Assembly: GCA_018394295.1 (NCBI GenBank)
Contig: CP074573.1
Span: 2,363,156 to 2,427,155, forward strand
Source of the DNA: Mycoplasmatota bacterium
GTDB taxonomy: Bacteria; Bacillota_I; Bacilli_A; Haloplasmatales; Haloplasmataceae
Length of the DNA stretch: 64,000 nucleotides
Direction: 5' to 3'
Part shown: piece by piece, positions 2,214 through 51,465 of the stretch
How the letters are laid out: every line of letters starts with the position of its first letter
Numbering within the stretch: position 1 is the first letter of the stretch
The notes under the pieces: model-generated
Told to the model about the DNA's origin: nothing
Databases searched by the model: none
What the model saw: only the letters and a program-made list of their open reading frames with translations
Program-made: the position numbers and the translations under genes

Positions 2214-3062
2214 TCAATTACTTAATGGAATCAATATGTTATTCCCAAATGTATTATTTGAAATATATCCATCATATAATTCTTTTAATAAAACTGTATC
2301 AAAAGGCATAGGTGTCAACTCATCAGCTGTATTATTATAAACATCTGAATTATTAGAAATTCCAAAAGTACCGTTGATTACATCATCTAATGTGAAATCA
2401 GCATGAGCTAGTATAGGTGATGGAATTGAAATAGTGATATTATAATATTTATCATCTATGTCATAAGAATAATGAATGTTAATGTTTGATTGGTTCATTA
2501 AATATTGATCGTATTGAGACAATTCTTGTAGTAGCATATAAATTCTTGCTAATATTATTTCATTTGACAAATCTGATGATGTCGAATAAAACGAAATATC
2601 TCCAAATGTAGAATCTGCCATTATATTATCTTCTATTATGTAACCTGTAAAATACTTATTCGCAAATGAACGAACAAGTTCTTCAAAGGATAAATATTTA
2701 CCCGATTGATCTAACATAATAGTGAAATTAGCTGCATCTGTATTTGCTCCTTTAAGCACAGTTACTTCAGCTTCTAATTGTGCAATCTTATCTAGTAATT
2801 CAGTGTTGTCAATAGTTTCTACTGCCTCTAATGCAGTTTCAAGTTCTGCAATTTTTGCTAATAATTCAGTGTTATCAGTAGTTTCTACTGCCTCTAATGC
2901 AGTTTCAAGTTCTGTGATTTTAGCAAGTAATTCAGTATTGTCATTATCTTCAATTGCGGATACTTTGCTATTTAACTTTACAAGGGTTTCACCAACAACA
3001 AAACCGAATGCTAGTAAAACTATAACTACAATAATTCCTGATAATTTTAGTAATTTTCCCAT
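2214..3062 (-). CDS. membrane-anchored coiled-coil repeat protein, function unknown
   Basis: 282 residues. Residues 7-24 form one hydrophobic segment (uncleaved anchor or signal), followed by three tandem 22-residue repeats at 41-62, 63-84 and 85-106. These begin DNTELL and carry heptad-like Leu/Ile/Ala spacing, so a trimeric or dimeric coiled-coil stalk is likely. The remaining 170 residues are rich in Ser, Asn, Tyr and Asp and probably form an extracellular domain. I do not recognise the family. The start follows AGGAGGAAAAGAG and a good promoter lies 35-62 bases upstream. The hairpin at 2143-2194 ends the unit, so it is probably monocistronic. It may be a surface protein. Confidence 0.75.
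   Translation of the reverse strand: MGKLLKLSGIIVVIVLLAFGFVVGETLVKLNSKVSAIEDNDNTELLAKITELETALEAVETTDNTELLAKIAELETALEAVETIDNTELLDKIAQLEAEVTVLKGANTDAANFTIMLDQSGKYLSFEELVRSFANKYFTGYIIEDNIMADSTFGDISFYSTSSDLSNEIILARIYMLLQELSQYDQYLMNQSNINIHYSYDIDDKYYNITISIPSPILAHADFTLDDVINGTFGISNNSDVYNNTADELTPMPFDTVLLKELYDGYISNNTFGNNILIPLSN
2745..2942 (-). repeat. three tandem 66-bp in-gene repeats
   Basis: Three consecutive 66-base units (2942-2877, 2876-2811, 2810-2745) encode the 22-residue coiled-coil repeats. The first two are almost identical at protein level (T/A and T/I differences) and the third is diverged, which suggests recent duplication of the first two. Confidence 0.8.
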
Positions 3063-3096
3063 CTCTTTTCCTCCTATAATTTTAAAACATCACTTT

Positions 3097-3124
3097 ATTA
3101 TACTACATTAGAAAGAATTGTAAA
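3097..3124 (-). promoter_or_regulatory. sigma-A type promoter of the coiled-coil protein gene
   Basis: On the minus strand, TTTACA (3119-3124) and TATAAT (3097-3102) are separated by 16 bases, upstream of the gene starting at 3062. Confidence 0.6.
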
Positions 3125-3317
3125 ATATTACCACAATAAATATGAAATATTTATCGAATATTACTTTTATCTTATCTTCAATTAGTGAATTTTTTATCAA
3201 TACAATAAAATGTTCTGGTTTTATAGGAACTATTGAATCATCAGTTTTTAATTTTTCAATAACATCATACCATTTTTCAATTGCATCTCGTATTAAATAA
3301 TTATTACAAAAAATCAC
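3108..3317 (-). pseudogene. possible small gene remnant, unknown
   Basis: A 69-codon frame with a protein-like middle (EKWYDVIEKLKTDD) but only a GTG start with no well-placed ribosome binding site, and a hydrophobic end. It overlaps the promoter of the neighbouring gene. It may be the tail of a lost gene or a chance frame. I do not recognise it. Confidence 0.2.
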
Positions 3318-3659
3318 CTACAAAGATACTAAGTTTTTAAAGTGTATACTCTATAGGTGAAATTTTATTAAATATTTTTTTCTAATGTAAAAATAATATA
3401 ATTATTAAAATAATAGTAATAATTATCCTATATTTTTTTCTAACTTTTTTTAAGAATCACTATTTCATTTAATATATAAACAAAAGAGGGATAGCAATCA
3501 AATAAAAGATAGATAAAAAATAAAATTTGTTATTAGAAAAAATATTTATAACAAAACTAAAAAATAAATGTAATAATTGATTTTTATTCTTATCATTCAC
3601 ATGCATTATATATACCAATACTAATAACTAACATCAAATATTGTATTATAATCAAACTA
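3318..3659. other. AT-rich intergenic region
   Basis: No gene, RNA or strong repeat recognised. Very AT-rich, with no ribosome binding site followed by an open frame. Confidence 0.4.
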
Positions 3660-3800
3660 TTACTTTTTAAGTATAAATTTATCATAATCTTCCTATAAAG
3701 AAATATATTTTATAGATTTTCCGTCCCAATCAACTTCATATAAAGTTGTAGATTGAGGATAATCTACTTTATACAAAGTAATCCTAAAAGGTACGTTATA
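3660..3800 (-). pseudogene. protein-coding remnant downstream of the metalloprotease gene
   Basis: Directly after the TAA stop of the metalloprotease gene, in the same frame, the minus strand reads YNVPFRITLYKVDYPQ and on to GKSIKYISL, then TAG, then EDYDKFILKK and TAA. The residue composition is protein-like, but there is no start. It is most likely a decayed separate gene or a lost C-terminal domain. Readthrough is possible but less likely because a second stop interrupts it. Confidence 0.4.
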
Positions 3801-5075
3801 TTAATTCGAGAAGATAGTATCGTTATATAATAAATTAAAATCCTCTTTCTCTTCTACAGAAAACATTCCATTAACAGGATAACTACATCCAACCTTATGA
3901 GCATCTAGTATTGGATTAAGTAATCCAGTTCCGTAATATTTTGTATTGCATCTACCTGTTGCAAAAACTGGTGCTTCATTGATAACATGTCCATTATGAC
4001 CTAGTGCATGACCTAATTCATGCGCTATTACTTCTACTACATTACTATTACTATAATATTGCAGATTATCATTCTCATCTAATCCCTGCATATTTAATAA
4101 GTCTATTATGTAAATATTTGATACATCAGTTGTTTGATTAACTTTATTTATTCTATAGCAAGCACCTGAAGTATTATCACAAAAACTATAGTGATTTGGT
4201 AAAATGCTTGTATAAGCATCATCGGTAACACCGTGTGTTCCTGATTTATATCCTAACGCAAGATATTCACCCTGTGTTATAAAATGAATAACTATTTCTG
4301 CTTCACTTTTGTAATAGGATCTTACAAAATCAAAACCAAACTGCATCTCCCAAATATTAATCGCATCTAATGTATATTGTTCATAAAAAGCTGCATTTGC
4401 AAGACTTGATTCAATGTAATAAGTTACAATCTTATCATTCATTCTATATACTGTAGAAACATCTCCAGAAAAATCATTTATATTATTTGTTACGTCAATC
4501 TCAAACTTATTAATAAAGACTCTTCCTTCACTATCCATAGCACAAGCTGTTAACTGATATGTTCCTGTAGTACCCATATTTACATTCTCTGTAACAACAT
4601 ATTGTCCAGTAATCTGAGAGTTATTAGAGTTCGCAATAATTCTATTTACCCAATTAGGTTCCGTTGAATTAGTGGCAAATACGTTATTAAACAAAGCTAG
4701 TTGAACAGTTGGTGCATCATTAACAACTTCAACATTATAAGTTCTAAAAATTTTGTGACCATTTACATCTCTCACAGTATAGGTAACTGTATAATTACCT
4801 AGTAATGTTACATCAACATTTTCAGTAATGGTAATTTTACTAATTGGAGAACCACCTGGTATAATATATACCATATTTCTCCAATCCTCAATCGAATTAA
4901 TTCCCAATTTATAAGGAAAATACTCCTTAGGTGTAATTGTAGGTGGTAAGTTCGTGGTATCACATATTTCTGTCGCAGGATCACACGGCTGAACTACATA
5001 CGCTTTAGCGTTAAGCGCTGTACCCAAAAGCATTACAGTAAAAATTGTTAATAAAAATAATTTACTTCTTTTCAT
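3801..5075 (-). CDS. secreted zinc metalloprotease, metzincin-like, with Ig-like repeats
   Basis: 424 residues. A signal peptide ends near AKA at residue 25. Two Ig-like (HYR/DUF5011-type) domains follow at about 50-118 and 120-195, recognised by the TLLGNYTVTYTVRDVNG pattern. The protease domain (210-424) holds HELGHALGHNGH at 352-363: HExxH supplies two zinc ligands and the Glu, while the third ligand is H360 or H363, one residue off the standard metzincin HExxHxxGxxH spacing. GLLNP (384-388) sits where the Met-turn is expected but has Leu instead of Met. Six or more Cys residues could form disulfides. The start follows GGGAGGAATTTTTT. It probably acts on extracellular or surface proteins; the substrate is unknown. 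Confidence 0.75.
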   Translation of the reverse strand: MKRSKLFLLTIFTVMLLGTALNAKAYVVQPCDPATEICDTTNLPPTITPKEYFPYKLGINSIEDWRNMVYIIPGGSPISKITITENVDVTLLGNYTVTYTVRDVNGHKIFRTYNVEVVNDAPTVQLALFNNVFATNSTEPNWVNRIIANSNNSQITGQYVVTENVNMGTTGTYQLTACAMDSEGRVFINKFEIDVTNNINDFSGDVSTVYRMNDKIVTYYIESSLANAAFYEQYTLDAINIWEMQFGFDFVRSYYKSEAEIVIHFITQGEYLALGYKSGTHGVTDDAYTSILPNHYSFCDNTSGACYRINKVNQTTDVSNIYIIDLLNMQGLDENDNLQYYSNSNVVEVIAHELGHALGHNGHVINEAPVFATGRCNTKYYGTGLLNPILDAHKVGCSYPVNGMFSVEEKEDFNLLYNDTIFSN

Positions 5076-5229
5076 AAAAAATTCCTCCCATAAAATATTT
5101 ACTACATAAGAAGTATAACACTTTATAGAAGGTATATCATATAATTTATAAAAAGTATTGTTTCATGTCTCGTATGAGAGTAAACTCTTAATGATTTATA
5201 TGTCTTTGGATATTTCTCAACTGACTATA

Positions 5230-5669
5230 CTGCTACCAGTTGCTTAAGTTCATAATTATTTGTCGGTTTTGCATTGTCAAATCAGGTTTCAATTCCTTTT
5301 TTATATAGTCTTTTGCGTATGTAGTAAGATTTTCAGTAAATGAAATCATTCTCTGACTTGAATAGTTTTTAGATGTACATCAGTAATCGTTTTTGATAGG
5401 TAATTGATCCATCACTTGACACTACTTTTAAATTTGGATATGATTTCAACCAATCTACCACGTCTTCATATTCTCTTAATTTTATCATATCTATAATTTG
5501 GTGCGTTCTAACATCTATCATTATCGTCCCATAGGATTCTCTCTTTTTTTAGGCAAAGATAATATACTTCTTTGCAATTAGATACAACGCTTATGTAACA
5601 TACAGAGTCAATAATTTCATGACTTACATAATCAAGATTTCAATCTAATAATTTAATAAATTCGTCCAT
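5230..5669 (-). pseudogene. decayed ISL3-family transposase fragment
   Basis: Read on the minus strand from ATG 5669, the sequence gives MDEFIKLLD, stop, NLDYVSHEIID, then after frame changes GTIMIDVRTHQIIDM, REYEDVVDWLKSYPN, VVSSDGSITY and LTTYAKDYIKKELKP. These are the ISL3 transposase catalytic core with the MID and SDGS Asp positions. Several stops and frame changes interrupt it and the C-terminal half is missing, so it is a dead copy. No intact ISL3 element is present in the window. Confidence 0.75.
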
Positions 5670-5908
5670 TATAAATCCTCGATTCTTTACTTTACGACTC
5701 TTTAATTATACCATTATTTTCTAAGTGAACCAACTAACTTTGGAAGGAACCAAGTTACAATTGACATGTACATGTTCTTTTATTCGATTAATCCCTCCTA
5801 TAATATTATCATAATTATAATACTTATAAGTTTTGTAATACCATTATAAATATTTTAATTTGTTTATAATTTCGTAGGCTTGTCTCTATATTATTTTCTC
5901 CATGAAGT
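5670..5908. other. intergenic region, no gene seen
   Basis: The AT-rich spacer between the ASCH gene and the ISL3 remnant. A GGAGGGATT sequence near 5787-5796 on the minus strand may be the ribosome binding site of a lost gene. No open frame of note. Confidence 0.35.
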
Positions 5909-6385
5909 CTATACTTGATATATTACTTCAAAATCTTCAAAAATCACTGGCATATCATCGCTAAACTCATACCCAAGTTCATTTCCTTCTTCCTTGAAAA
6001 AACGAATATGTCCCTTACGCCAGGATTCTAATGTATCATCCTCACCCTCACGCTTACAAAGATCATAAGTAATATCTGAAAATGGAAGAATTGTTACCGC
6101 AATTGTTTCAATAACACAGCGTGGTACACCTTCCCAATCAGTGACAATACTTAAATCACCAACCTCAGGTACACGCGCACCTTCAATTTCATATCCCCAT
6201 AAACTACTAGCTGTAGCCTTCTTTTGTCCAATTAACACTAAATGCAATAATTCATTGACCCATTTTTCAGTTAATTCAAAATGAAATACATCTAAATACT
6301 TGGTTGTTTTATCTCTACTTGTTTCTCTTAAAAAAGATTTCCAAAACATTTCTATTTTTTCTTGCGAATACTTTTCATTTTCCAT
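5909..6385 (-). CDS. ASCH domain-containing protein
   Basis: 158 residues, matching small bacterial ASCH proteins (COG4405 type). The conserved core is visible: GQKKATASSLWGYE (about 53-66), then PEVGDLSIVTDW and CVIETIAVTILPFSDI. A WRKGHIRFF segment and an acidic-to-aromatic tail follow. ASCH folds resemble PUA domains and are thought to bind RNA or modified nucleosides; some members have amidohydrolase or nuclease activity. No membrane segment, so it is cytoplasmic. The start follows GGGAGGTAGTATTA. Neighbours are unrelated, so it appears to be a single-gene unit. The exact substrate is unknown. Confidence 0.85.
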   Translation of the reverse strand: MENEKYSQEKIEMFWKSFLRETSRDKTTKYLDVFHFELTEKWVNELLHLVLIGQKKATASSLWGYEIEGARVPEVGDLSIVTDWEGVPRCVIETIAVTILPFSDITYDLCKREGEDDTLESWRKGHIRFFKEEGNELGYEFSDDMPVIFEDFEVIYQV

Positions 6386-6760
6386 TAATACTACCTCCCT
6401 TGAGCTTTATACATCATAAACTAATGTTTAATAGAAATATTACCTATTATAATAAATCTACATCACTGATTATTCATGCTATATCATAAAAAATTATACC
6501 ATGATTTATCATTTCTTTACAGAATTTAATTAAATAGTTATTTTGTAATTATATTTTTCTTTATCTTTTCAATTCTTTAAAAATATATGAAGTTAAATTT
6601 ACCTGGATTTTATTTCTTGGATTTTGGTTACACTATATTTCACTACCATTACTAGTATCATTTTTGTATATATTACTATATTACTTGCGTTTTTTAGAAG
6701 ATTTTGTCTTTAGAACATGATATAATAATATTATATAAAATAATAATAGGATGGTAAATC
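6386..6760. other. intergenic region between divergent genes
   Basis: 375 bases separating the ASCH gene from the next plus-strand gene. TATAAT at 6721-6726 is a possible -10 box for the plus gene but no good -35 box lies 16-18 bases upstream. No other structure recognised. Confidence 0.4.
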
Positions 6761-7459
6761 ATGAATATTAAGCTACTGAATTTTAATTCAAATCAAAATA
6801 TTTTAAATTATATTACCACAGGCTTGAAGACTAATTATAACTCTCATTCATTTTCTATAAATGAAAAAAGCATTGAACTATTTCATAAAAAAGATGGATT
6901 TTTTTTAAAACAACACTCACTTTTTTGTATTATAAAAACAAGTGATTTATCGCATGAGAACCTAGAAGTGATAAAAAAGCATATCTATTTTAAAATGACT
7001 GAGTTAAATCTTTTTAAATCTTTATATAGACCTGGATCAAATGTCATGTTAAGACTAATTATAGAGACTGAAAGTAATTCAGAGGCTATTATTAAGGCTT
7101 ATAAAGAAAATAGAGATTTAAATATTGATTATGTTTTTATTTGTAAAGATGAGCTGTATTACAAGAATAACAAATCACTAAGTAATATCTATAATTTAAA
7201 TACCCTAGATTTTCTTTCATTACTTGATTCAATTAGTAACAATATATGTAATAAGAAATTATATCAGATACTCAATATAATAGGATATAAGTATTATGTT
7301 TTACTTCAGATTCTTTTTGTCATCACAACACCTTTTATAGCTTCCTCTTTAAACTTAAATAGACCTTGGCTGACCGCTTTTTTATTACTACCAAGTATAT
7401 TTATGTTTATGTTTATTATACTTTCGAATATTTTTAGAATGGAATTAAAAAAAGATTAA
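6761..7459 (+). CDS. hypothetical protein with two C-terminal membrane helices
   Basis: 232 residues, not recognised. The N-terminal 170 residues are polar, Asn/Lys-rich and mixed alpha/beta. Residues about 178-200 and 205-228 are hydrophobic and should form a hairpin of two membrane helices, leaving the large domain in the cytoplasm. The ATG follows AGGATGG with 7 bases between. A strong hairpin terminator (7473-7507) follows directly, so it is a single-gene unit. Neighbours (ASCH protein, ABC-F ATPase) give no functional clue. Confidence 0.7.
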   Translation: MNIKLLNFNSNQNILNYITTGLKTNYNSHSFSINEKSIELFHKKDGFFLKQHSLFCIIKTSDLSHENLEVIKKHIYFKMTELNLFKSLYRPGSNVMLRLIIETESNSEAIIKAYKENRDLNIDYVFICKDELYYKNNKSLSNIYNLNTLDFLSLLDSISNNICNKKLYQILNIIGYKYYVLLQILFVITTPFIASSLNLNRPWLTAFLLLPSIFMFMFIILSNIFRMELKKD

Positions 7460-7472
7460 CAGAGAAAAGTTT

Positions 7473-7507
7473 ACAACCAACACCAATGGTGCTGGTTGTT
7501 TTTTTTC
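7473..7507 (+). terminator. rho-independent terminator
   Basis: ACAACCAACACC pairs with GGTGCTGGTTGT around an AAT loop (one mismatch), followed by eight T residues. Ends the gene at 6761-7459. Confidence 0.85.
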
Positions 7508-7651
7508 ATCAAGTAATATCCAACTTCTCCCTTATAATTAAAATAATTCCCAACAAAGTGGATGAATGGTATTTTTTACCCTGCTCCATTTTATTTTTTT
7601 GTAGTTTTTAGTTTTATATTATGTTACTATATATTGATAGGAGTTGTTAGA

Positions 7652-9268
7652 ATGATTACAGTATCAAATTTAGATTTAATATTTTCAGATAAAAAAATAT
7701 TTAAAAACGTCAATTTAAAATTTACACCAGGTAATTGTTACGGTGTAATTGGAGCAAATGGAGCAGGTAAATCTACATTTTTGAAGATTTTGTCCGGTGA
7801 AATGGATTCAACAAAAGGCGAAGTTATTATTGAAAAAGGGAAAAGAATGGCTGTTTTAAAACAAGACCATTACGAATACGAAGACTTTGCGGTTATTGAT
7901 ACAATTATCATGGGTCATAAAAGGTTATATGATATTATGAAAGAAAAGGAATTATTGTATGCAAAAGTTCCTTTTACTGAAGAAGATGGAATAAAAACAG
8001 CAAATCTAGAAATGGAATTTGCTGAGCTAGATGGATGGAATGCTGAGTTTGAAGCTGAAAAGTTATTACATGGATTAAATGTAGATAAAGTTAATTTCCA
8101 AAAAAAAATGAGCGAAGTAACTGGTCAAGATAAAGTCAAAATTTTACTAGCGCAAGCATTATTTGGAAACCCTGACATTTTATTACTTGATGAACCGACA
8201 AACCACTTAGATTTTGAAACCATTCGGTGGTTAGAAAATTTCTTGCTTCATTATGAAAACACTGTCATTACTGTCTCCCATGATAGACATTTTCTAAATA
8301 AAGTTTGTACACATATAGTAGATATTGATTTTGGAGTAGCCAAACTTTACCCAGGAAATTATGACTTTTGGAGAGAATCATCACAATTAGCACAAAAATT
8401 AATGCTTGATGCAAATAAGAAAAAAGAAGAAAAGGTGAAAGAATTAAAATCTTTTATTGCTAGGTTTAGTGCGAATGCTTCAAAATCATCGCAAGCAACA
8501 TCACGAAAAAAATCTCTTGAAAAAATTAATCTTGACGAAATTGTTCCTTCTTCGAGAAAATATCCATTTGTTGGGTTTGAATTAAGTAGAGATTTAGGGA
8601 AAGATGTTTTAACAGTTGAAAATTTATCCGCTTCTTTTGAAGGAAAAAAAGTATTTGAAAATGTCTCATTCACCATATACCGTGATGATAAAATTGCTTT
8701 ACTAGGAAAAAATGATTTGGCAAGAACCGTACTATTACGCATTTTAGCTGGTGAGTTATTACCAGATAGTGGTACATTTAAATGGGGACAAACTGTTGTA
8801 CACGCTCATTTACCAATTGATAACACAAGTTATTTTAATAATTGTGATCTAAACTTGATCGATTGGTTGAGACAATATTCAAAAGACCCAGCTGAAGTTT
8901 ATATTCGAGGGTTTTTAGGTAGAATGTTATTTTCCGGAAATCAACCACTTAAAAAGGTACAAGTACTATCAGGTGGAGAGAAAATGCGTTGTATGTTGTC
9001 TAAACTGATGTTAGCACATGCAAATACTTTACTGATTGACCAACCAACAAATCATCTGGATTTAGAATCAATTCAGTCTGTAAATACCGGATTAAAAGAA
9101 TTTAAGGGATCTCTTATTTTAACATCCCACGATCATTCATTATTATCAAGTGTTTCCAATAAAGTGATAGAAATTGGGGATAAAGGATCCTATACATTTG
9201 AAGGATCATTTGAAGAATATTTAGACAATACAATGGCAAAGAATTTAGTAAATAAACTATATATCTAA
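7652..9268 (+). CDS. ABC-F family ATPase, YkpA/YbiT type
   Basis: 538 residues from ATG 7652, chosen because AGGAG lies 8 bases upstream; the frame is open further back but that part is a hydrophobic run without a binding site. Two ATPase domains are joined by a charged linker (FSANASKSSQATSRKKSLEK), with no membrane segments, as in ABC-F translation factors. Domain 1 has GANGAGKST and LLLDEPTNHLD, but the signature is reduced to TGQDK. Domain 2 has an altered Walker A (GKNDLART), a normal LSGGEK signature and LLIDQPTNHLD, where Gln replaces the catalytic Glu. Only one of the two composite sites is likely to hydrolyse ATP normally. Probable role: ribosome-associated factor or stress protein. 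It sits alone between terminators. Confidence 0.88.
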   Translation: MITVSNLDLIFSDKKIFKNVNLKFTPGNCYGVIGANGAGKSTFLKILSGEMDSTKGEVIIEKGKRMAVLKQDHYEYEDFAVIDTIIMGHKRLYDIMKEKELLYAKVPFTEEDGIKTANLEMEFAELDGWNAEFEAEKLLHGLNVDKVNFQKKMSEVTGQDKVKILLAQALFGNPDILLLDEPTNHLDFETIRWLENFLLHYENTVITVSHDRHFLNKVCTHIVDIDFGVAKLYPGNYDFWRESSQLAQKLMLDANKKKEEKVKELKSFIARFSANASKSSQATSRKKSLEKINLDEIVPSSRKYPFVGFELSRDLGKDVLTVENLSASFEGKKVFENVSFTIYRDDKIALLGKNDLARTVLLRILAGELLPDSGTFKWGQTVVHAHLPIDNTSYFNNCDLNLIDWLRQYSKDPAEVYIRGFLGRMLFSGNQPLKKVQVLSGGEKMRCMLSKLMLAHANTLLIDQPTNHLDLESIQSVNTGLKEFKGSLILTSHDHSLLSSVSNKVIEIGDKGSYTFEGSFEEYLDNTMAKNLVNKLYI

Positions 9269-14201: not shown

Positions 14202-15887
14202 TTAACTATTTTCAGAATAACTTCTTAATAATTTCGCTATCTCAAAGTCTTCAATTTCTAAAGCGAAGAAAATGGCAGCATCTCCTTTATTATCTTTTAG
14301 ATTACTATCTGCACCACATTTTAATAAAGCTTCCACAACTCTAATATTACCACTTTTAATCGCGTGCATTAACGCTGTCATCCCAGAATCATCTTGAAGA
14401 TCAACATCAAAATTAGGATGCTCAAAAATTTTAGCAATAAATCTTTTCTTTTGCATTTGAAGAGCAATCATTAATAGTGTCTTACCCTCTTTGTATTTAA
14501 GATTTAAATTTGCTCCATAATTTAATAATTCATCAAATAATTCTAAATTATCATCAAATAAACTTAACAATATTAAAGAATTTTGGTTTTTATCTATCGT
14601 ATTAATCTCTGCCTTACGTGAACGGATTATCTTTTGTAAGGTGTTTGAGTCATGATTTTGGTAAGCAATCAATAAAGCGTTTAATCCCTCATTATTCATT
14701 ATGTTGATATCTATTAGGGGGTATTCAATTAATCGATCAATAATTAGGTTTTGCTTATTTTTAATTGCAACCAGTAGGATGGTGTTTCCCTCATTATCTT
14801 GACAATTGACATCAACTCTTCGCTCTAATAATTCATTAAATAATAATTTATATTCTTCCTGATGTGTTTTATCACCACTTATATCATTTAACTGTTCATT
14901 AAGCGTAAATAGGATAGTTTTATTATTTGAATCTTTTAAATTCAAATTACTATCTAAATATATTATCTTTCTTGCACAAATAAACATACCGAACTCAACA
15001 CAATACATAAGAAGCGATTTTCCACGATAATCAATATTATTTAACAAATCATTTTTCCGCAAAATCTTATCAAAGATAAATTTATTATTATATTTAATTG
15101 AAAAAACAGCAATTAAAAATGGAATATTAAATCGACAATAATCTTCTACATCCTCATATTCAAGTAATAATTCAAGTAATTTATCATGATCTTTATCTTT
15201 AAAATGTTTATCAATAATTTCAATTATTTTATTAATTAAAGGCGTATCAATTCCTAATCCATTGGCAATGTCTAAAGCTGTTTCATGATTATAATTTTTA
15301 ATAAATGGATCAGCACCATAATCAATTAATAATAATGAAAAATCAATGTCTTCATTTTTAACTGCGTAGTGTAAAATAGTATTACCATCTTTATTAATAT
15401 GATTGATGAACACATTCTTTTCTAATAAATATAAGCAAATTTCTTTCCGATCATGCTTATATGCATATATTAAAGTATTTTCACCTTGTAAATTAAATCC
15501 CTTAATGTCAATTTCTTTTTCAATTATTAGTTCAAAATATTCTGAATTAGGATTATTAATCACATAAAATAACACCGATTCACGTTTATTATCAATAAAA
15601 TCTAATTTAATATCTGTTTCTAATAATTTTTTAAACATCGGTAAGTTATCATACTTAATCGCAGTCATTAGATAACTCATATTATTTTTATTCAAATGAT
15701 TGATATTTGAACAATAGGTAATAGCAGCTTCAGCGATTGTATTTTTATGATTTTTAATACTCTTTTCAATCAAATCTTCGTCATCTTTAAATATTTCATT
15801 GAGATCCATTTTTTTAGATTCCAGATAAAAAACAATTTTAGGTTCATCATCTTCAAACATTTTTTTTACTTTTGAATTTTTAAACAC
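14202..15887 (-). CDS. ankyrin-repeat protein
   Basis: 561 residues with no signal peptide or membrane helix, so probably cytoplasmic. After a 40-residue N-terminus, nearly the whole chain is ankyrin-like repeats of about 33 residues. The clearest are near 165-195 (NKDGNTILHYAVKN) and at the C-terminus (DSGMTALMHAIKSGNIRVVE, DNKGDAAIFFALE); I count at least ten units of varying quality. The start is GTG, five bases after GGGGAGGT. Ankyrin arrays bind proteins; the partner here is unknown. The gene precedes the HI0933-type flavoprotein by 16 bases and probably shares its transcript. Long bacterial ankyrin proteins occur in free-living as well as host-associated bacteria, so an effector role cannot be assumed. 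Confidence 0.85.
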   Translation of the reverse strand: MFKNSKVKKMFEDDEPKIVFYLESKKMDLNEIFKDDEDLIEKSIKNHKNTIAEAAITYCSNINHLNKNNMSYLMTAIKYDNLPMFKKLLETDIKLDFIDNKRESVLFYVINNPNSEYFELIIEKEIDIKGFNLQGENTLIYAYKHDRKEICLYLLEKNVFINHINKDGNTILHYAVKNEDIDFSLLLIDYGADPFIKNYNHETALDIANGLGIDTPLINKIIEIIDKHFKDKDHDKLLELLLEYEDVEDYCRFNIPFLIAVFSIKYNNKFIFDKILRKNDLLNNIDYRGKSLLMYCVEFGMFICARKIIYLDSNLNLKDSNNKTILFTLNEQLNDISGDKTHQEEYKLLFNELLERRVDVNCQDNEGNTILLVAIKNKQNLIIDRLIEYPLIDINIMNNEGLNALLIAYQNHDSNTLQKIIRSRKAEINTIDKNQNSLILLSLFDDNLELFDELLNYGANLNLKYKEGKTLLMIALQMQKKRFIAKIFEHPNFDVDLQDDSGMTALMHAIKSGNIRVVEALLKCGADSNLKDNKGDAAIFFALEIEDFEIAKLLRSYSENS

Positions 15888-16050
15888 ACTATACCTCCCC
15901 TGAAACTCCGTTTATAAACTTACTATTATTTTACTTGTCGAAAACAAGTAAATCAATAGGAACCGTATGATTTATTGATAAAATATGTAATATTGTTTGT
16001 TTAATAAGTTTTATACATGTTATAATAAATAAAAACAAATGGGGGATAAG

Positions 16051-16764
16051 ATGGATATTAAAAGTTTTATTCTTGGATTTTTACTTGGTATTCTATTTTT
16101 ATTTTTTATTTTCTTATTAACTATATATATCACTAATAAACGTTTTTTAAAAAAGACTCTTAATGCTTCAAACATTGAAAATCAAACAATACGTCAATTA
16201 ATCGCAAATAAATCAAAGCAAATTATTAAATCACCTCGAATTGGTTTTACTAATAATCTAGCATTAATGCAAGAATTAACGAAAGATTTAGTTCAAGAAA
16301 TCGCAACCTACTATTACCCTGATAGTAAGTATCCACATTTAGAAATTAATATTATTGAAGCCATCGAAATGAATGAACGCGTTTTAGAACGTTTAAAACA
16401 AATTTTAGATTATAAAGTTATTGGTTTACTGAAAACAATTCGTATTTCACAAATTATTACTATTTTAGAAACGAAAAAAAATATCGAAAGCCATAAACTC
16501 TATCAGTTATCAAAAAAATATCACTTTGATAAAGTCGTTCGTTTTGGATACACAGCCCTAAATTGTGCCAATATAGGTTACTGGATTAGACGTTTAATTT
16601 TTACTTCTACATTAGAAACCACCTTAAGAAGTGTTGCAGTAATGACATTAAATATTGTAGGTGAAGAATCTTCACAATTATATAGTAAAAAAATCTTAGA
16701 TAATAGTGATAAAATTCTTGACAAAGAATTAGATAAATTTGTGAAAACAATTGAAGCTAGTTAA
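16051..16764 (+). CDS. membrane-anchored protein of unknown function
   Basis: 237 residues from ATG 16051; GGGGG lies five bases upstream, so this ATG is preferred over the in-frame one at 16039, which overlaps it. A single strong membrane helix at about 6-28 is followed by a cytoplasmic, mostly helical domain with many Ile, Leu and Lys, containing a hydrophobic patch (VIGLLKTIRISQIITIL). It vaguely resembles the helical parts of DUF697-type membrane proteins, but I cannot assign it. A perfect 14-bp hairpin terminator follows at 16784-16818. It is divergent from the ankyrin gene across a 150-base gap. Confidence 0.65.
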   Translation: MDIKSFILGFLLGILFLFFIFLLTIYITNKRFLKKTLNASNIENQTIRQLIANKSKQIIKSPRIGFTNNLALMQELTKDLVQEIATYYYPDSKYPHLEINIIEAIEMNERVLERLKQILDYKVIGLLKTIRISQIITILETKKNIESHKLYQLSKKYHFDKVVRFGYTALNCANIGYWIRRLIFTSTLETTLRSVAVMTLNIVGEESSQLYSKKILDNSDKILDKELDKFVKTIEAS

Positions 16765-16783: not shown

Positions 16784-16818
16784 AAAAAGTCTTTATTCAA
16801 TCACAATAAAGACTTTTT
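16784..16818. terminator. terminator between convergent genes
   Basis: AAAAAGTCTTTATT pairs perfectly with AATAAAGACTTTTT around a seven-base loop. It can end both the plus gene at 16764 and the extended minus DUF362 frame that closes at 16822. Confidence 0.85.
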
Positions 16819-16821
16819 TAT

Positions 16822-16968
16822 CTATTTATCAATAGCGATATTATTATGATACACTTTTTGACTAAAAATTAACTCTGCATCTCTTAAAGAAAGTCCTTTT
16901 ATATTTATTTTATTGACATCAGTCTCTTTCATATTAGCTTTTTCCAATTGATATAAATAATTAATCGC
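16822..16968 (-). pseudogene. C-terminal continuation of the DUF362 gene beyond an in-frame TAA
   Basis: After the TAA at 16969-16971 the same frame stays open for 48 codons: AINYLYQLEKANMK, DVNKINIKGLSLRDAELIF and SQKVYHNNIAIDK, ending at TAG 16822. This looks like the usual C-terminal end of DUF362 proteins (GFKPxAIxYLYxAEKA...IKGLS). The ancestral codon was probably CAA (Gln). A nonsense mutation, or readthrough, separates the two parts. The transcription terminator lies just after the distal TAG, not after the internal TAA, so the gene was once 297 codons. Confidence 0.75.
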
Positions 16969-17715
16969 TTAAGGCTTAAATCCTAACAAACGAGCAGCAA
17001 TTGTATCACTACCAATCGGATTATTCCCACAGATTACAAGACCAGTATGATAAGGGATACCTTTTGAAGGTCCTGTTCCTACCATTGCTGGATTACAACT
17101 TATAATAGATAAATCTATGGGGATTTTTAATGCCATCTTACTAATAAAGCCATGTAAATCTTCATGAATACCTAAATTCTTTTTAGGTGATCCATGTTCC
17201 TCTGTCGATGGAATTGATAACATAACATTTTTAATCGAAGCAGACATTGTAGCTTCTTCATGTTGTTTTAATTGTGTAAAAGATATTAACTTCGTTTTCT
17301 CATTCATAATTTTATTCATTTTAAGCGAATGAATAATAGGATGTTCAATAACTAGTTCCTCATATGGACCTTGATTAAAATCAATAAATTCAATTTTTTC
17401 TTCTTGGATTATTTTTTCATATCCAACCGTACGCATTACATCTAATGTATCTCCACCACCAGAACCTGTTGCGATTATAATACGTTTCGGGTTTTTAATT
17501 TTCACCCATTGAATAATGGTTCGTAAAGTATTAGGTCCAACAGTAATCCCACTTGAAGGACTTGGCTTATCTTTATTAACCCAATTTGGAATAATAACCA
17601 CTATATCATTCGTTGTAATTAGAGATTTTGCATTAATTAGATCCAAGCCTTCTAATACTGCCATACTTTCATTTTCGTGTTGAATAATAGCCACATCACT
17701 TGAATTATAATCCAT
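16969..17715 (-). CDS. DUF362 domain-containing protein (truncated by in-frame stop)
   Basis: 248 residues of a DUF362 protein, a family often linked to Fe-S proteins and found in anaerobes. Visible features are IIPNWVNKDKPSPSSGITVGP near the N-terminus, IIIATGSGGGDTLDVMRT and the C-terminal CNPAMVGTGPSKGIP. It ends in RLLGFKP, where homologues run on for another 40-50 residues; the missing part is encoded in frame just after the TAA (16822-16968). No ferredoxin Cys cluster is present. A terminator lies between it and the upstream synthase gene, so it is transcribed separately. Whether the shortened product works is uncertain. Confidence 0.75.
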   Translation of the reverse strand: MDYNSSDVAIIQHENESMAVLEGLDLINAKSLITTNDIVVIIPNWVNKDKPSPSSGITVGPNTLRTIIQWVKIKNPKRIIIATGSGGGDTLDVMRTVGYEKIIQEEKIEFIDFNQGPYEELVIEHPIIHSLKMNKIMNEKTKLISFTQLKQHEEATMSASIKNVMLSIPSTEEHGSPKKNLGIHEDLHGFISKMALKIPIDLSIISCNPAMVGTGPSKGIPYHTGLVICGNNPIGSDTIAARLLGFKP

Positions 17716-17772
17716 AATTTTCCTCCTTTTAATTATTATTATTTCTAATTGAAAGAAAGAATATACTAAAAA

Positions 17773-17791
17773 AAATTCCCTAAGGGAATTT
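17773..17791 (-). terminator. terminator of the SDR/synthase transcript
   Basis: On the minus strand AAATTCCC, a short loop, GGAATTT and a run of T residues follow the stop of the synthase gene at 17820. Confidence 0.7.
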
Positions 17792-17819: not shown

Positions 17820-19004
17820 TTAACGTATTAAATTAGCATTAGTAAATACCTTTTTAAATTTATCTAACGCATAATCTAATTGTTCAGTTGTATGCGTTGC
17901 AGTATAACTTGTTCGAAGCAATGCTTCTCCTGGGTTAACAGCTGGAGAAATAACAGGATTTACATAGACACCTTCTTCAAGTAATTGTTTTGCGATTATA
18001 AAAGTAGCGATATCCTCATATGTCATAACTGGAATAATTGGCGTTTCAGAATTACCTATTTCTAATCCTAATTCAGTATAACCTTTTCTCATATAGTTAC
18101 CATTATCCCATAATTGTTTAACTCTTTGTGGTTCAGCTTCTAATATTTTTAAGGCTTCTAAAGCTGCAGCTGCATTAGATGGTGAAATTGAAGCACTAAA
18201 GATAAACGGACGGGACACATGTCTAATATAATGAATAACATCACTACTAGCCGCTACGAATCCGCCTAAACTAGCAAGAGATTTACTAAATGTCCCAACG
18301 ATGATATCAACTTTATCTTCTAGTCCATAATATTCAGCAGTACCACGACCAGTTTTACCCATGACTCCCACACCATGCGCATCATCAATCATGATTCGTG
18401 CACCATATTTCTCAGCTAATTTCACCATTTCTGGAAGATTACATATATCTCCTTCCATACTAAACACACCATCAGATAATATTAATTTACCACGGTTCTC
18501 TGGAACTGCTTTTAATGCTCTTTCTAAATCTTCCATATCATTATGATTGTATTTAATCATTCTTGCAAAACTTAAACGGCATCCATCGACAATACTAGCA
18601 TGATTTCCACGATCACTAATAATATAATCATTTCTACCCGCTATTGCTGATATTAGTCCTAAATTAGCTTGAAAACCAGTACTAAAAGCCATAGCATCAT
18701 CCTTATGTAAAAATCTTGCGAGATTTTTTTCTAATTCAACATGTAAATCAAGTGTACCATTTAAAAAACGTGATCCAGAACAACCAGTTCCATATTTTTT
18801 AACTGCATCAATTGCCGCTTGTTTAACACGCTCGTCACTGGTTAATCCTAAGTAGTTATTTGATCCAATCATAATGGTCCTTTTTCCATTCATTAAAACT
18901 TCTGTATCTTGACCAGATGTTAACATATGGAAATATGGATAAACGCCTTGTTTTATCGCTTCTTTTGCATCTGTATAATTATAACATTTTTGAAAGATAT
19001 CCAT
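17820..19004 (-). CDS. alpha-oxoamine synthase (serine palmitoyltransferase-like / KBL-like PLP enzyme)
   Basis: 394 residues of the PLP alpha-oxoamine synthase group, which condenses an amino acid with an acyl thioester and releases CO2. Conserved blocks: GSNNYLGLT, GTGCSGSRFLNGT, HLE-type LDLHVELE, DRGNHASIVDG, LSDGVFSMEGD, the PLP-phosphate DDAHGVGVMG and the Schiff-base Lys in GTFSKSLASLGG. The opening MLTSGQDTEVLMNGK and the FLNGTLDLH block resemble serine palmitoyltransferase-type members more than biotin synthase KAPA (BioF), but glycine C-acetyltransferase is an alternative. It follows the SDR gene by 17 bases; the pair would fit condensation then ketone reduction. The start follows GAAGAGGAGTAATACC. 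Cytoplasmic. Substrate not proven. Confidence 0.88.
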   Translation of the reverse strand: MDIFQKCYNYTDAKEAIKQGVYPYFHMLTSGQDTEVLMNGKRTIMIGSNNYLGLTSDERVKQAAIDAVKKYGTGCSGSRFLNGTLDLHVELEKNLARFLHKDDAMAFSTGFQANLGLISAIAGRNDYIISDRGNHASIVDGCRLSFARMIKYNHNDMEDLERALKAVPENRGKLILSDGVFSMEGDICNLPEMVKLAEKYGARIMIDDAHGVGVMGKTGRGTAEYYGLEDKVDIIVGTFSKSLASLGGFVAASSDVIHYIRHVSRPFIFSASISPSNAAAALEALKILEAEPQRVKQLWDNGNYMRKGYTELGLEIGNSETPIIPVMTYEDIATFIIAKQLLEEGVYVNPVISPAVNPGEALLRTSYTATHTTEQLDYALDKFKKVFTNANLIR

Positions 19005-19021
19005 GGTATTACTCCTCTTCT

Positions 19022-19825
19022 TTAATAAATTTTCGATATCACATATTCTACTACTTTTGCTGGCAATAGTCGTTTAAGTAATCCGACTAATTTATATTGC
19101 CAACCCACTACTCTTCTAATTGAAGGATTCTTCTTGTTTATTATCTTTTTTAATTCTTTTACCACAACATCAGCACTTGGTCCTTTAGACTCTGATTTAA
19201 TCATCTCATTAACTGCTTTATCACATTTTTCTTTATAAACTGAATTTATTGAATTTCTAGCATGCACCCTTTCAAAATTAGTCTTCATATCCCCAGGTGC
19301 TATCATAGAAACCCTCACATTAAATGGTTTTACCTCTATTCTTAACGCTTCTGTCATTGCTTCTAAAGCATATTTACTTGAGCTATACATAGATTGATAG
19401 GGGATTGAGATAAATCCAGCAACAGAACTGATATTAATAATCAATCCATTTCTTTGCTTTCTCATCATTGGCAAAACCTCTCGGCAACAAGACATTATTC
19501 CAAAGAAATTCGTATTAAATAATTCTTTAGCTTCTTCAGTAGTAATATCTTCTACACTCCCAGCTAGTCCATATCCTGGACAGTTAATTAAAACATGTAT
19601 CGCTCCCTCTTTTTCTTCAATATATTGAACAGCCTTTTTAATTGAATCTTCATTGGTTACATCTAATGGTATCATTTTAATTTTTCCTTCAATTTGTTCG
19701 AAGGATGCCTTACGGGAAGTGCCATAAACGGTATATCCTTTATTAACTAGATAATTAGCACAAACTTTTCCCACACCAGAAGATGCACCTACTACTAGGG
19801 CTATTTTACCATAAATTCCGATCAT
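19022..19825 (-). CDS. short-chain dehydrogenase/reductase, 3-ketosphinganine reductase-like candidate
   Basis: 267 residues, classical SDR length. The cofactor motif is GASSGVGKV (TGxxxGxG variant, about 14-22), then NCPGYGLAG in place of NNAG. The catalytic Ser is in INISSVAGF and Tyr-Lys in YSSSK. R/K-rich positions after the second strand suggest NADPH use. The C-terminal 40 residues (RRVVGWQYKLVGLLKRLLP) are basic and amphipathic and may touch the membrane, as in lipid-acting SDRs. It is first in a two-gene transcript with the alpha-oxoamine synthase. The start is ATG after AAAGGAGGATAAA. A different ketone substrate is possible. Confidence 0.85.
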   Translation of the reverse strand: MIGIYGKIALVVGASSGVGKVCANYLVNKGYTVYGTSRKASFEQIEGKIKMIPLDVTNEDSIKKAVQYIEEKEGAIHVLINCPGYGLAGSVEDITTEEAKELFNTNFFGIMSCCREVLPMMRKQRNGLIINISSVAGFISIPYQSMYSSSKYALEAMTEALRIEVKPFNVRVSMIAPGDMKTNFERVHARNSINSVYKEKCDKAVNEMIKSESKGPSADVVVKELKKIINKKNPSIRRVVGWQYKLVGLLKRLLPAKVVEYVISKIY

Positions 19826-38076: not shown

Positions 38077-40035
38077 TTAATGAATTATCTGTTTAATATA
38101 TTTATTTTTAGTAATAAAATAGAAGGTGAAATGAATAACAATAAATACAAGCATCATCATTAGGCTATACCACATCACTCGATAATAAAATGTAAAATTC
38201 ATTGCGGTTAACATAATATAGAGAAAACCAATTAATAATCCAAGGATCATTGGAATAAAAAAGATGACTTTTAATTCGCTGAAAATTGGTTTCTTCATTT
38301 CTACATCAGATGATCCTATTTTTTTAATTTTTTCATAGCGTTTCTTTTGATTAGGTAAATCGTTAAATAATTTTAGAGTTATCACTACCCCGATAGAAAT
38401 AGAAAACGTAATTCCAATAAAACACATAACAAACAAGTTGCAAGATGCATTCCGCATATTATTTTCATAAGCAAGAACTCTAGATGATGGCATCAGAGAC
38501 CAATCATTATATAATTGTTGTAACGTTTGATTCTCTATTTTTTCAGGATTTTTTGCTTTTACTGCGTTAACAAAATCAAGAACTAAAGGTTTTGAATTCA
38601 TCCAATGATCTAACTTAAACATTCGAAACCGTTCAATTCTATCACTTCCTAATTCTCTGACAATCTGATTGTAGTTGGCATCATCGATAATAATCATAAA
38701 TTGTAGTTGATAATTATTTATATTATAATGATACCCTATTTTTTCTTCTTGAAACTTAAACTGGAAGTTTCGATTTGTTTGCTGGTCTTTAAAAACAATA
38801 TCTTCTTCTTTTTCAAACCATTTCAACGATCCATCTTCAAAAGAGATAGCAACCGCATGATCTTTTTTAACATCTAAATTTTTTTGACTTAGTTGATTAT
38901 ACATGTTTTCAGAGACAATAACTGTATCGCCCCAAATCCCATACTGATTCGTTGTGGTTTTATATAAAATCATATGCATAAATTCCATTGTTTTTTCTTC
39001 TTTATCAATGTGATGCTTTTCAAATATTTGTGTAATCTCTTCATCACTTAGAGACTTGCTCCATCCTGTTTCTATAAGCATGAGATCATAAGGATATACC
39101 TTTTTCACCTCTTCAAGCTGAGTTGCATAGACCGAAAAAGTCAATCCAATAAAATAAATCGCAACAGCAATTAATAAAGTTGTAACAAATAGGATGTTCT
39201 TATATTGTTTAAAATGCTGTTTTAACTCAGAATAAAATAATATATTCTGATGATATTTCTCTTTTTTTATTAATCTTAAAATAATTTGTCCAAATTCTTT
39301 AATTATTAGGTATAATCCAATTAAATTCATAGTAAAAAATAATATTAAGAAAAGTAGAGGGTTATTAACTACATTTTTAACTAATAATAGATAGGTTAAT
39401 AGATAAGAGACAATAATTAATAGAATTCCAATGAAACCTAATAACGGATTATTCGAATCATTAATTTCACTCATTTTCTCTTTTTTCAATAACTCAATTA
39501 CTTGAAACTTATTTATCTTAAAGTGTGAGATAATTAACACAACTGTAAATATGAAAGAGAATAAGATAATTGTTAATAAAAAACTTTTATAATTTAAAAT
39601 AAAGGGAATATCCTTTAAATCAATGATGGAAAGAAATATCATATAAAATAACTTAGAAAATACAACACCACTTATAATCGCAGCTACAATTGATATACAC
39701 ATAATGATAAAATATTCAATTCTATTCATTCGATTAATCTCTTTACTTGTCATTCCAAGTGTTATAAAAAGCCCTATTTCATGATATTTTGACTTAATAA
39801 ATGCCTGATATGCATAATGAATGAAAAAAACAGAGAAGATACCAATAATAAATAATGCCATTTTCATTACTTCATCAATAGTAGTATATCTAATGGTTTC
39901 ATATAATGCAGGATTATAATAGATGATTGAATAGATGAAGAAAACCATAATTGAAAAACTAATACATAAAAAGAAAGCTAAATATTGTTTTATATGATAA
40001 ATAAAATTTTTTCGAATCATGCTTTTAAAATTCAT
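38077..40035 (-). CDS. BceB-type ABC transporter permease (FtsX-like)
   Basis: 652 residues from ATG 40035; AGGTGGTGAG lies upstream inside the end of the ATPase gene. Ten membrane helices: one near the N-terminus, then a cluster to about 300, a large outer domain of about 200 residues (310-515), and the last three helices with the FtsX domain. This 1+3+..+3 layout with a big loop between helices 7 and 8 is the BceB/VraG type that senses and counters peptide antibiotics such as bacitracin. It overlaps the BceA-like gene by 11 bases and follows the kinase and regulator genes, making a complete four-gene module. Confidence 0.9.
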   Translation of the reverse strand: MNFKSMIRKNFIYHIKQYLAFFLCISFSIMVFFIYSIIYYNPALYETIRYTTIDEVMKMALFIIGIFSVFFIHYAYQAFIKSKYHEIGLFITLGMTSKEINRMNRIEYFIIMCISIVAAIISGVVFSKLFYMIFLSIIDLKDIPFILNYKSFLLTIILFSFIFTVVLIISHFKINKFQVIELLKKEKMSEINDSNNPLLGFIGILLIIVSYLLTYLLLVKNVVNNPLLFLILFFTMNLIGLYLIIKEFGQIILRLIKKEKYHQNILFYSELKQHFKQYKNILFVTTLLIAVAIYFIGLTFSVYATQLEEVKKVYPYDLMLIETGWSKSLSDEEITQIFEKHHIDKEEKTMEFMHMILYKTTTNQYGIWGDTVIVSENMYNQLSQKNLDVKKDHAVAISFEDGSLKWFEKEEDIVFKDQQTNRNFQFKFQEEKIGYHYNINNYQLQFMIIIDDANYNQIVRELGSDRIERFRMFKLDHWMNSKPLVLDFVNAVKAKNPEKIENQTLQQLYNDWSLMPSSRVLAYENNMRNASCNLFVMCFIGITFSISIGVVITLKLFNDLPNQKKRYEKIKKIGSSDVEMKKPIFSELKVIFFIPMILGLLIGFLYIMLTAMNFTFYYRVMWYSLMMMLVFIVIHFTFYFITKNKYIKQIIH

Positions 40036-40786
40036 TAGGCTCACCACCTAATACCGCAAGATTATCTAAAATCTGATCAAAAAAGGCTTTTCTATTCCCC
40101 TTTCTAACCATTTCTAAATGAATTTTCCCATCTTTAATAAAGATTATTCGCTTACAAAAGCTTGCAGCTAACGCATCATGAGTAACTAATAAAATAGTAC
40201 TTTCTTTTTCTTGATTCAACTTTTCTAAAGATTGCATAATAGAAATTGAAGATTTAGAATCTAAATTACCCGTTGGTTCATCGGCAAGTAAAATACTTGG
40301 TTCATTTATTAAAGCTCGGGCAATTGAAGTTTTTTGCTTTTGTCCCCCAGATATTTGATATGGATATTTATTTTCTAAGGCTTGAATGGATAAGTACTGG
40401 ATTAATTCATTTGCCTTTTCTTTCATCAAACTTTCTTCTTTATGGTCTAATATCATTGGTAACATAATATTTTCTTTAACTGTTAAACTATCTAATAAAT
40501 TGAAATCCTGAAAAATAAATCCAATATGTTTTCTTCTAAATAAGGCTAATTCATTTTGATTCATTTTTGATAAATCATAATTCATTAACTCAACTTGTCC
40601 AGAAGTAGGTTCATCTAATCCACCTAACATGTTTAATAAAGTGGTTTTACCACTACCTGAAGGACCCATTATCCCTACAAATTCACCTTTTTGTATTTTT
40701 AAATTCATGTCTTTTAGTGCATGTGTAGCACTAATATCATTTTTTCCACCATAAATCTTTTCTAAATTACGAGTTACTAATAACAT
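40025..40786 (-). CDS. BceA-type ABC transporter ATP-binding protein
   Basis: 253 residues from ATG 40786; AAAAGGAGTGGAATT sets this start, the further 16 codons upstream lacking a site. Walker A GPSGSGKTT, Q-loop FIFQDFNLL, signature ISGGQKQKTSIARAL, Walker B LLADEPTGNLDSKS and the switch His in VTHD. This is the MacB/LolD-like class that works with FtsX-type permeases. It drives the BceB-like permease encoded next. The 81-base gap to the kinase gene may carry its own BceR-type promoter, as is usual for such modules. Confidence 0.92.
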   Translation of the reverse strand: MLLVTRNLEKIYGGKNDISATHALKDMNLKIQKGEFVGIMGPSGSGKTTLLNMLGGLDEPTSGQVELMNYDLSKMNQNELALFRRKHIGFIFQDFNLLDSLTVKENIMLPMILDHKEESLMKEKANELIQYLSIQALENKYPYQISGGQKQKTSIARALINEPSILLADEPTGNLDSKSSISIMQSLEKLNQEKESTILLVTHDALAASFCKRIIFIKDGKIHLEMVRKGNRKAFFDQILDNLAVLGGEPNEF

Positions 40787-49905: not shown

Positions 49906-50298
49906 ATGGCAAGATACTCAAAGGATTATAAGTTATCATTAATACAAAGAATGATGCCACCACATAATGAATCAGTCAAAGAATTATCAAGAGAATCAGG
50001 AATACCAGAAATAACACTTTTTACTTGGAAAAAGAAAGCGAAAGAAAATGGAATCCCTGTTAACGAACAACCTTTAAAATCAGAAGAATGGAGTACACAA
50101 GATAAGTTTCATATTGTCTTAGAAACTGCAACATTAAGTGAAGTAGAATTATATAAGTATTGTAGAAATAAAGGACTATATGTTAATCAAGTTAAAGAAT
50201 GGCGAGATGCATGTATGCAGGCTAATGGTGGTGTAGCTAAACAAGCAACAGAACTACAAAAGCAGTTAAGAGAAAAAATCAAGAACTTAAGAAATTAA
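49906..50298 (+). pseudogene. IS3-family OrfA, truncated by one-base deletion
   Basis: Identical to OrfA of copy 1 for 126 codons. A run of seven A at 408-414 in copy 1 is six A here (50273-50278). The frame then reads KIKNLRN and stops, so the product is 130 residues and lacks the end of the coiled coil and the A AAA AAG slip site in the right frame. The copy probably cannot make a normal OrfA or OrfA fusion, although downstream frames are intact. A sequencing error in the homopolymer is also possible. Confidence 0.85.
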
Positions 50299-50377
50299 AT
50301 AAAGAACTACAAAGAAAAGAATCAGCACTTGCAGAAGCAGCAGCCCTTCTTGTACTTAGAAAAAAGGCAAGTGCGAT

Positions 50378-50590
50378 TTGGGGGGAAGACGAGGAAGATT
50401 AATCAGTGCCACAGATCGCAAAAAAGCAATATCACTGATAAGAGAAGCTGTAGATAATGGAGCAAGACAAGAAAAAGCATGTGAAGAAATAGGAATTAGT
50501 TTACGAACACTTCAACGATGGAGAAGTGATTCATCACCAAATGAAGATCAAAGACCAATTAGTAAAAAAAAGTACCCAAAAATAGATTAA
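50378..50590 (+). CDS. IS3-family transposase, OrfB N-terminal part (HTH), copy 2
   Basis: 70 residues identical to 514-726 in copy 1, with helix-turn-helix KACEEIGISLRTLQRW and the A AAA AAG heptamer at 50566-50572 leading by -1 slippage into the catalytic frame. It starts at TTG or through an upstream slip. Because OrfA of this copy is frameshifted before the first heptamer, OrfA-fused product would not form in the usual way. Confidence 0.75.
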   Translation: MGGRRGRLISATDRKKAISLIREAVDNGARQEKACEEIGISLRTLQRWRSDSSPNEDQRPISKKKYPKID

Positions 50591-50664
50591 CTAAAAAAGA
50601 ACGAGAAGAAATTTTAAAAGTCGTAAATCAGCCTGAATATAAAAACTTATCTCCTAATGAAATT

Positions 50665-51465
50665 GTGCCACTCCTAGCTGATAAAGGAATATATTTAGCA
50701 TCTGAATCAACAATATATAGAATCTTAAGAGAAGAAAAACAACTAAAACATAGAGGAAATACTAAAAAGCCCCAAAATAGACCTATATCAACACATTATG
50801 CCACAGGTCCTAATCAAGTATGGATGTGGGATATTACTTATCTAAAGGGACCAATAAAAGGGATATATTATTATTTATATTTGATCCTAGATTTATTTAG
50901 TAGAAAAGTAGTAGGATGGGAAATATGGTCTGAACAATCTGCTCAACACGCTAGTGAACTAGTTAAAAGAGCAGTATTAGCAGAAAATATACTTTTACAT
51001 AAAAAACCTTTAGTGCTTCATTCTGACAATGGAAGTCCGATGAAAGGAGCCACTCTTTTAGAGACCCTTTATCAACTAGGTATTACTCCATCAAATAGTA
51101 GACCTAGAGTAAGTAATGATAATCCTTATGCGGAGTCTATATTTAAAACATTCAAATATTGTCCAGGTTACCCAGATAAGGGCTTTGAGACTATTAAACA
51201 AGCAAGAACTTGGTCATTACAGTTTATAAACTGGTATAACTATGAACATCTTCATAGTGGGATAAAATATTTAACTCCACATCAAAGGCATTCCGGTTTA
51301 TCTAATAAAATATTAAAAAAGCGAATTAAAGTCTATGAACAAGCACAACTTAAACACCCAGAAAGATGGTCGAGAAACATAAGAAATTGGAGTGTGGAAA
51401 ACATAGTTTGGTTAAACCCAGAAAAATCATCAATTTTGGAAAAAGAAGAAACAAAATCTTCTTAA
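50665..51465 (+). CDS. IS3-family transposase, OrfB catalytic domain, copy 2
   Basis: 266 residues, identical to the protein at 801-1601. DDE residues in WDITYL, HSDNGS and YAES. The frame is open upstream to the -1 slip site, which is probably the real N-terminal junction. This part is intact, so the element might still be mobilised by OrfA supplied from the first copy. Confidence 0.9.
   Translation: MPLLADKGIYLASESTIYRILREEKQLKHRGNTKKPQNRPISTHYATGPNQVWMWDITYLKGPIKGIYYYLYLILDLFSRKVVGWEIWSEQSAQHASELVKRAVLAENILLHKKPLVLHSDNGSPMKGATLLETLYQLGITPSNSRPRVSNDNPYAESIFKTFKYCPGYPDKGFETIKQARTWSLQFINWYNYEHLHSGIKYLTPHQRHSGLSNKILKKRIKVYEQAQLKHPERWSRNIRNWSVENIVWLNPEKSSILEKEETKSS

Follow-up and report, generated by a model that had tools for sequence, protein, structure and literature searches.

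A DUF362 gene carrying one in-frame TAA at a conserved glutamine codon: a probable recent nonsense mutation in a Haloplasmataceae genome

The window analysed here, a stretch of 64,000 nucleotides from a genome of 3.29 Mb in two contigs, contains a minus-strand DUF362 gene whose coding frame ends at a TAA and then runs on in the same frame. This arrangement raises the question of what the TAA stands for: a gene that has recently been broken, a stop codon that is read as an amino acid, the natural end of a shorter protein, or a wrong base in the assembly.

The interrupted frame and its flanks

The minus-strand frame at 17715..16825 comprises 248 codons, the TAA and 48 further codons in the same frame, and is closed by a TAG at 16822-16824. 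The initial annotation had described a DUF362 frame, a single in-frame TAA, 48 protein-like codons and a TAG, and both its coordinates and its description were exact. Neither a further stop nor a frameshift was found within the 48 tail codons. The features of the locus are as follows.

16972..17715, minus strand: DUF362 coding frame before the stop, ATG start, 248 codons (reading frame and Pfam PF04015)
16969..16971, minus strand: in-frame TAA, at a codon that is Gln in intact homologues (frame and homologue alignment)
16825..16968, minus strand: continued frame of 48 codons, whose product is homologous to the C-terminal end of DUF362 relatives (alignment, blastp and profile match)
16822..16824, minus strand: TAG, the expected end of the gene (frame; homologues end from 1 codon before to 11 codons after it)
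17722..17727, minus strand: Shine-Dalgarno-like AGGAGG ahead of the ATG (sequence reading)
16784..16818, no strand assigned: perfect 14-bp inverted repeat with T runs, arms 16784-16797 and 16805-16818 (sequence reading)
17773..17791, minus strand: terminator-like hairpin between the upstream serine-palmitoyltransferase-like (SPT-like) gene and the DUF362 gene (terminator scan)

In a window of 28% GC, the open run after the TAA would mean little if taken alone. At least 30 open in-frame codons follow the stop in 8 of the 51 window ORFs, the DUF362 ORF included, and two of these eight runs enter the next gene.

The window frame matched Pfam PF04015 with 113 bits against a cut-off of 24, over the whole profile (1-200 of 200), and DUF362 was the only Pfam family found in the protein. 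Since this match reaches only residue 242 and thus ends upstream of the TAA, a Pfam scan gives no sign of the truncation. The 48 tail residues alone matched no Pfam family. NCBIfam returned one match for the protein, to the Npun_F2552 family; its 34 bits fall so far short of the cut-off of 500 that the protein cannot be counted as a member.

A terminator had also been proposed right behind the TAG, and the perfect 14-bp inverted repeat indeed begins 3 bases past it. This repeat is a probable two-way terminator, common to the DUF362 gene and the convergent gene at 16039-16764; it is not listed by the terminator scan because the scan demands at least three G-C pairs and the repeat falls below that. 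The scan found one site, the hairpin at 17773..17791, against a shuffle mean of 0.3 (sd 0.6). Promoter-like sites around the DUF362 gene were not in excess (8, against 8.2 in shuffles).

The tail in homologues, its predicted fold and its constraint

Homologues were collected by tblastn at E < 1e-20, which gave 28 loci and, as four pairs were the same contigs, 24 distinct homologues; the identity of the window copy to them is 47% or more. Fourteen weaker matches of the 22 in one search (L009-L022, E 1e-8 to 3e-4) were kept outside the tail comparison. All 24 homologues, which belong to a subfamily of ~300 residues, have the tail as a translated part, with 48-60 residues from position 249 onward, whereas the window frame ends at 248. 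Not one of them ends naturally at GFKP, the last residues before the TAA; every homologue runs through this region, and the residue aligned to the TAA is Gln in each. The codon is CAA or CAG in 23 of them, and for L026 the residue was read from the alignment. Among the 25 sequences, the window's and those of the 24 homologues, the TAA is present in one. Gln-249 is likewise invariant in a 22-row alignment, which omits L006 and L007.

The 48-residue tail, used on its own as a blastp query against the 28-protein set, matched the C-terminus of all 24 homologues (E 6e-23 to 4e-7), and a profile built from relatives aligned with the window's genome along positions 2-292 of 293, one TAA lying within the match; the homology thus exceeds chance. 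Given that every homologue continues through the TAA position with Gln and that the tail alone matches each of them, the 48 codons past the TAA are, by sequence homology, the true C-terminus of the DUF362 gene.

The structural place of this tail was assessed on an AlphaFold2 model of the intact same-genus homologue L023 (pLDDT 90.0, pTM 0.91). Its tail is predicted to form helices at 252-259 and 277-288 and a strand at 271-274, with block pLDDT means of 82-97. The predicted fold of the homologue resembles that of lactate racemase LarA, more precisely of the LarA N-terminal domain. VIA-align of the model with LarA-type racemases gave Z-scores of 15.4-17.6 over 206-220 residues at 11-16% identity, the best row having Z up to 17.6 and an rmsd of 2.9 over 211 residues; rows at Z 6.2 or less (eIF2B-like and others) were taken as common arrangements. 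Foldseek gave a best E of 2e-6, but TM-scores of only 0.37-0.47 by query length. The DUF362 homologues have ~300 residues in contrast to the 400-480 of LarA, and the model has neither the size nor the C-terminal domain of LarA, 10 of the 11 racemase rows aligning only up to chain residue 265-287. According to PMC11770544, DUF362 and DUF2088 are in one Pfam clan, which DUF362 also shares with the LarA superfamily.

In a weak HMM alignment (E 0.025), H152 and K162 were paired with H174 and K184 of 2yjg, which we take to be a catalytic His and the cofactor-bearing Lys of LarA; this pairing is only a lead. A nickel-pincer enzyme was considered and rejected. The profile of the nickel insertase LarC (PF01969) matched none of the 10 genomes searched, two of which are listed at 85% and 55% completeness, and it matched in 6 of 14 control genomes; a nickel-pincer role, or cofactor synthesis by the known route, is therefore unlikely here. 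TIGR00268, presumably a LarE-type model, gave sub-cut-off matches only in all 10 genomes and matched all 14 controls, and is hence uninformative.

The window copy keeps all 36 other invariant columns of the 22-row alignment, as well as every other column conserved at ≥90%. For dN/dS, 6 of the 15 aligned sequences were used. The tail dN/dS between the window and the same-genus genome G001 was 0.15, below all six finite values among the five intact relatives (0.18-0.34). Against L003, L004 and L005, the window tail gave 0.30, 0.29 and 0.56; the pairs with L006, including that with the window, were saturated. Window-specific and relative-specific amino-acid changes numbered 15 and 9 in the head, as compared with 4 and 2 in the tail (Fisher p = 1). 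These comparisons suggest that the tail is still constrained, without excess change on the window's branch. Such constraint would also fit readthrough of the stop or an error in the assembly.

The tail comparison has 11 differences in 47 columns, at most nine of which (four assigned and five unassigned) can lie on the window's branch. When neutral tail decay was simulated at 0.1 substitutions per site, 41% of the runs ended with nine or fewer changed residues; the share was 0.7% at 0.2, and no run ended so at 0.3 or more (at 0.3, none of 2,000). By halving the silent divergence, the branch of the window since G001 comes to roughly 0.4-0.65. With this branch length, the simulations suggest that any period without selection on the tail covers less than about one third to one half of the time since G001, and there may have been no such period.

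The gene in the family and its neighbourhood

Six of the eight genomes compared in the family, with that of the window among them, carry the DUF362 gene. The window's genome yielded no other DUF362 gene, and a backup paralogue was accordingly discarded as a candidate. PMC3855842 reports that the Haloplasma contractile type strain was reassembled into 34 contigs, against the two contigs of the window's genome. Two sister genera, represented by G003 and G004, lack the gene, and both genomes are listed at 100% completeness. In G004, the SPT-like gene directly adjoins mem241, a relative of the window gene at 16039-16764, and the DUF362 slot is empty. The G003 slot is empty as well, although there the mem241 match is limited to residues 5-49 and the SPT-like gene carries a break of its own. 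Since the SPT-like protein of G004 is closer (87%) than that of G002 (82%), which has the DUF362 gene, we infer that the absence in G004 reflects loss of the gene rather than a late gain elsewhere. The interruption of the SPT-like gene in G003 (L094, G003:C15:137266-138413) involves a frame change near residues 302-305, and both a TAG and a TAA are flagged by the search, so that erosion of this neighbourhood may not be confined to a single lineage.

Nine of the window's neighbour genes were looked for in 24 loci. The SDR-SPT pair was seen ahead of the DUF362 gene in L023 and L024 only, and L025 begins too near a contig end to show it. The other loci yielded only a weak SDR match (33-34%), in two Anaerocolumna loci. 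Because the DUF362 gene has a terminator-like site on its upstream side, we do not claim that this gene belongs to the sphingolipid-like pair.

The SPT-like enzyme encoded at 17820-19825 on the minus strand scored 588.6 bits with NCBIfam SerpalmtaseCFB, the cut-off of 640 being unreached, and the SDR beside it had 3-ketodihydrosphingosine reductase as its best match, at 267 bits with a cut-off of 400 unreached. The two genes could possibly open the sphingolipid pathway of Haloplasma by supplying its first two steps; among papers that combine Haloplasma and sphingolipid, none was found that by its listing concerns this.

Other differences and landmarks were noted around the locus. In L023, from the same-genus genome, the SPT-like and DUF362 genes are separated by a 307-codon ORF (3008-3931), and a 1244-codon ORF (4934-8668) stands on the other side; the window has neither there. 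A 561-residue ankyrin-repeat protein is encoded at 14202-15887 on the minus strand and is kept beside an HI0933-like gene in L024 and L025. On the plus strand at 49906-51465, two transposase ORFs, HTH_Tnp_1 followed by an rve integrase core, have a layout that we take to be like that of IS3-type elements.

Explanations for the stop

We consider it probable, at about 0.72, that the TAA is a very recent, lineage-specific nonsense mutation at the Gln-249 codon of a probably dispensable gene. The initial annotation had offered a one-base nonsense change as one of its possibilities, which agrees with the Gln (CAA/CAG) found at the TAA in the homologues; the very recent pseudogene that it had named as another is the same event, and the tail still looks constrained. 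The DUF362 gene would have been intact until very recently, when a single nonsense change hit the Gln-249 codon. Initiation would presumably be normal, from a good ribosome-binding site, and translation would halt at 248 residues and leave the last 48 unmade. With the tail gone, the predicted LarA-like fold would be short of two helices and one strand, and the product would therefore probably be unstable or inactive. The break would have been tolerated because the gene is apparently dispensable in this bacterial family, and the locus would be a pseudogene at its first step. Seen in this way, the break looks like an ordinary event and not a new way of reading stops.

The main rival is an assembly or sequencing error, in which case the organism's gene would be intact and the TAA a wrong base call. 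The rest of the gene is intact and constrained exactly as an error predicts, and the organism is represented by a single sequence. However, the change is a substitution and not a length error. Moreover, when 26 genes of the window, which has 51 ORFs of ≥90 codons, were aligned to two G001 contigs, 25 matched along most of their length without a stop, the DUF362 gene being the sole exception (a weak match of 25% identity at window 39998-40720, whose aligned translation contains one stop, was set aside as a distant paralogue). The stretch is thus not generally error-prone, and we regard an error as unlikely and the TAA as probably a real base. The chance is much smaller that the protein of 248 residues works in its shortened form, the tail being dispensable and the truncation neutral or adaptive. 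Such a protein would have the complete Pfam DUF362 model ahead of the stop and all of the conserved K150, H152, K162 and H184, but it would lack a part that none of the 24 homologues lacks, that holds three invariant residues (Q249, Y253 and G274, in the 22-row alignment) and that is predicted to form two helices and a strand in the same-genus homologue.

A recoded stop, also suggested in the initial annotation, is not supported by the tRNAs found, by the use of stop codons, by the relatives or by RNA folding. Each of the 65 tRNA genes found in the genome carries a sense anticodon and none reads UAA, although a tRNA may have been missed since 150 of 267 candidates were scored. The 51 non-overlapping window ORFs of ≥90 codons end with TAA in 40 cases (DUF362 included), TGA in 7 and TAG in 4, which speaks against a code change making TAA sense. 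The RNA at and past the stop (16990 to 16860) is unstructured, 199 of 200 shuffles being more stable (z = +2.06), and the stop is shared by 0 of the 24 homologues. This evidence makes it very improbable that an amino acid is inserted at the UAA at low or regulated frequency to give two protein forms, even though readthrough would account for the constraint kept on the tail, and even though a survey of bacterial in-frame stops (PMC7918605) reports them as widespread, with many keeping dN/dS < 1 (0.74 around TAA), and suggests frequent readthrough. The slimmest chance of all is given to readthrough of the UAA that reaches a useful rate with no suppressor tRNA devoted to it. The product would then mostly have 248 residues, a small share would be the full-length LarA-like protein, and selection on the latter would keep the tail.

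With a nonsense mutation as the preferred explanation, the locus is a case in which a fresh nonsense break can be separated from a recoded stop by comparison, and it warns that a structural tail may be missing despite a full-length Pfam domain match. Provided that the base is real, the gene has been caught as its loss begins, beside a possible sphingolipid gene pair and in a family that includes two relatives without the DUF362 gene.

The closest known systems are nonsense-interrupted bacterial genes and young pseudogenes, such as those surveyed in PMC7918605. That survey counted only stops common to at least two genomes, whereas the DUF362 stop is known from one genome only. In other respects the likeness is direct: a single in-frame stop, an otherwise constrained gene, and a sense codon at the same position in the orthologues.
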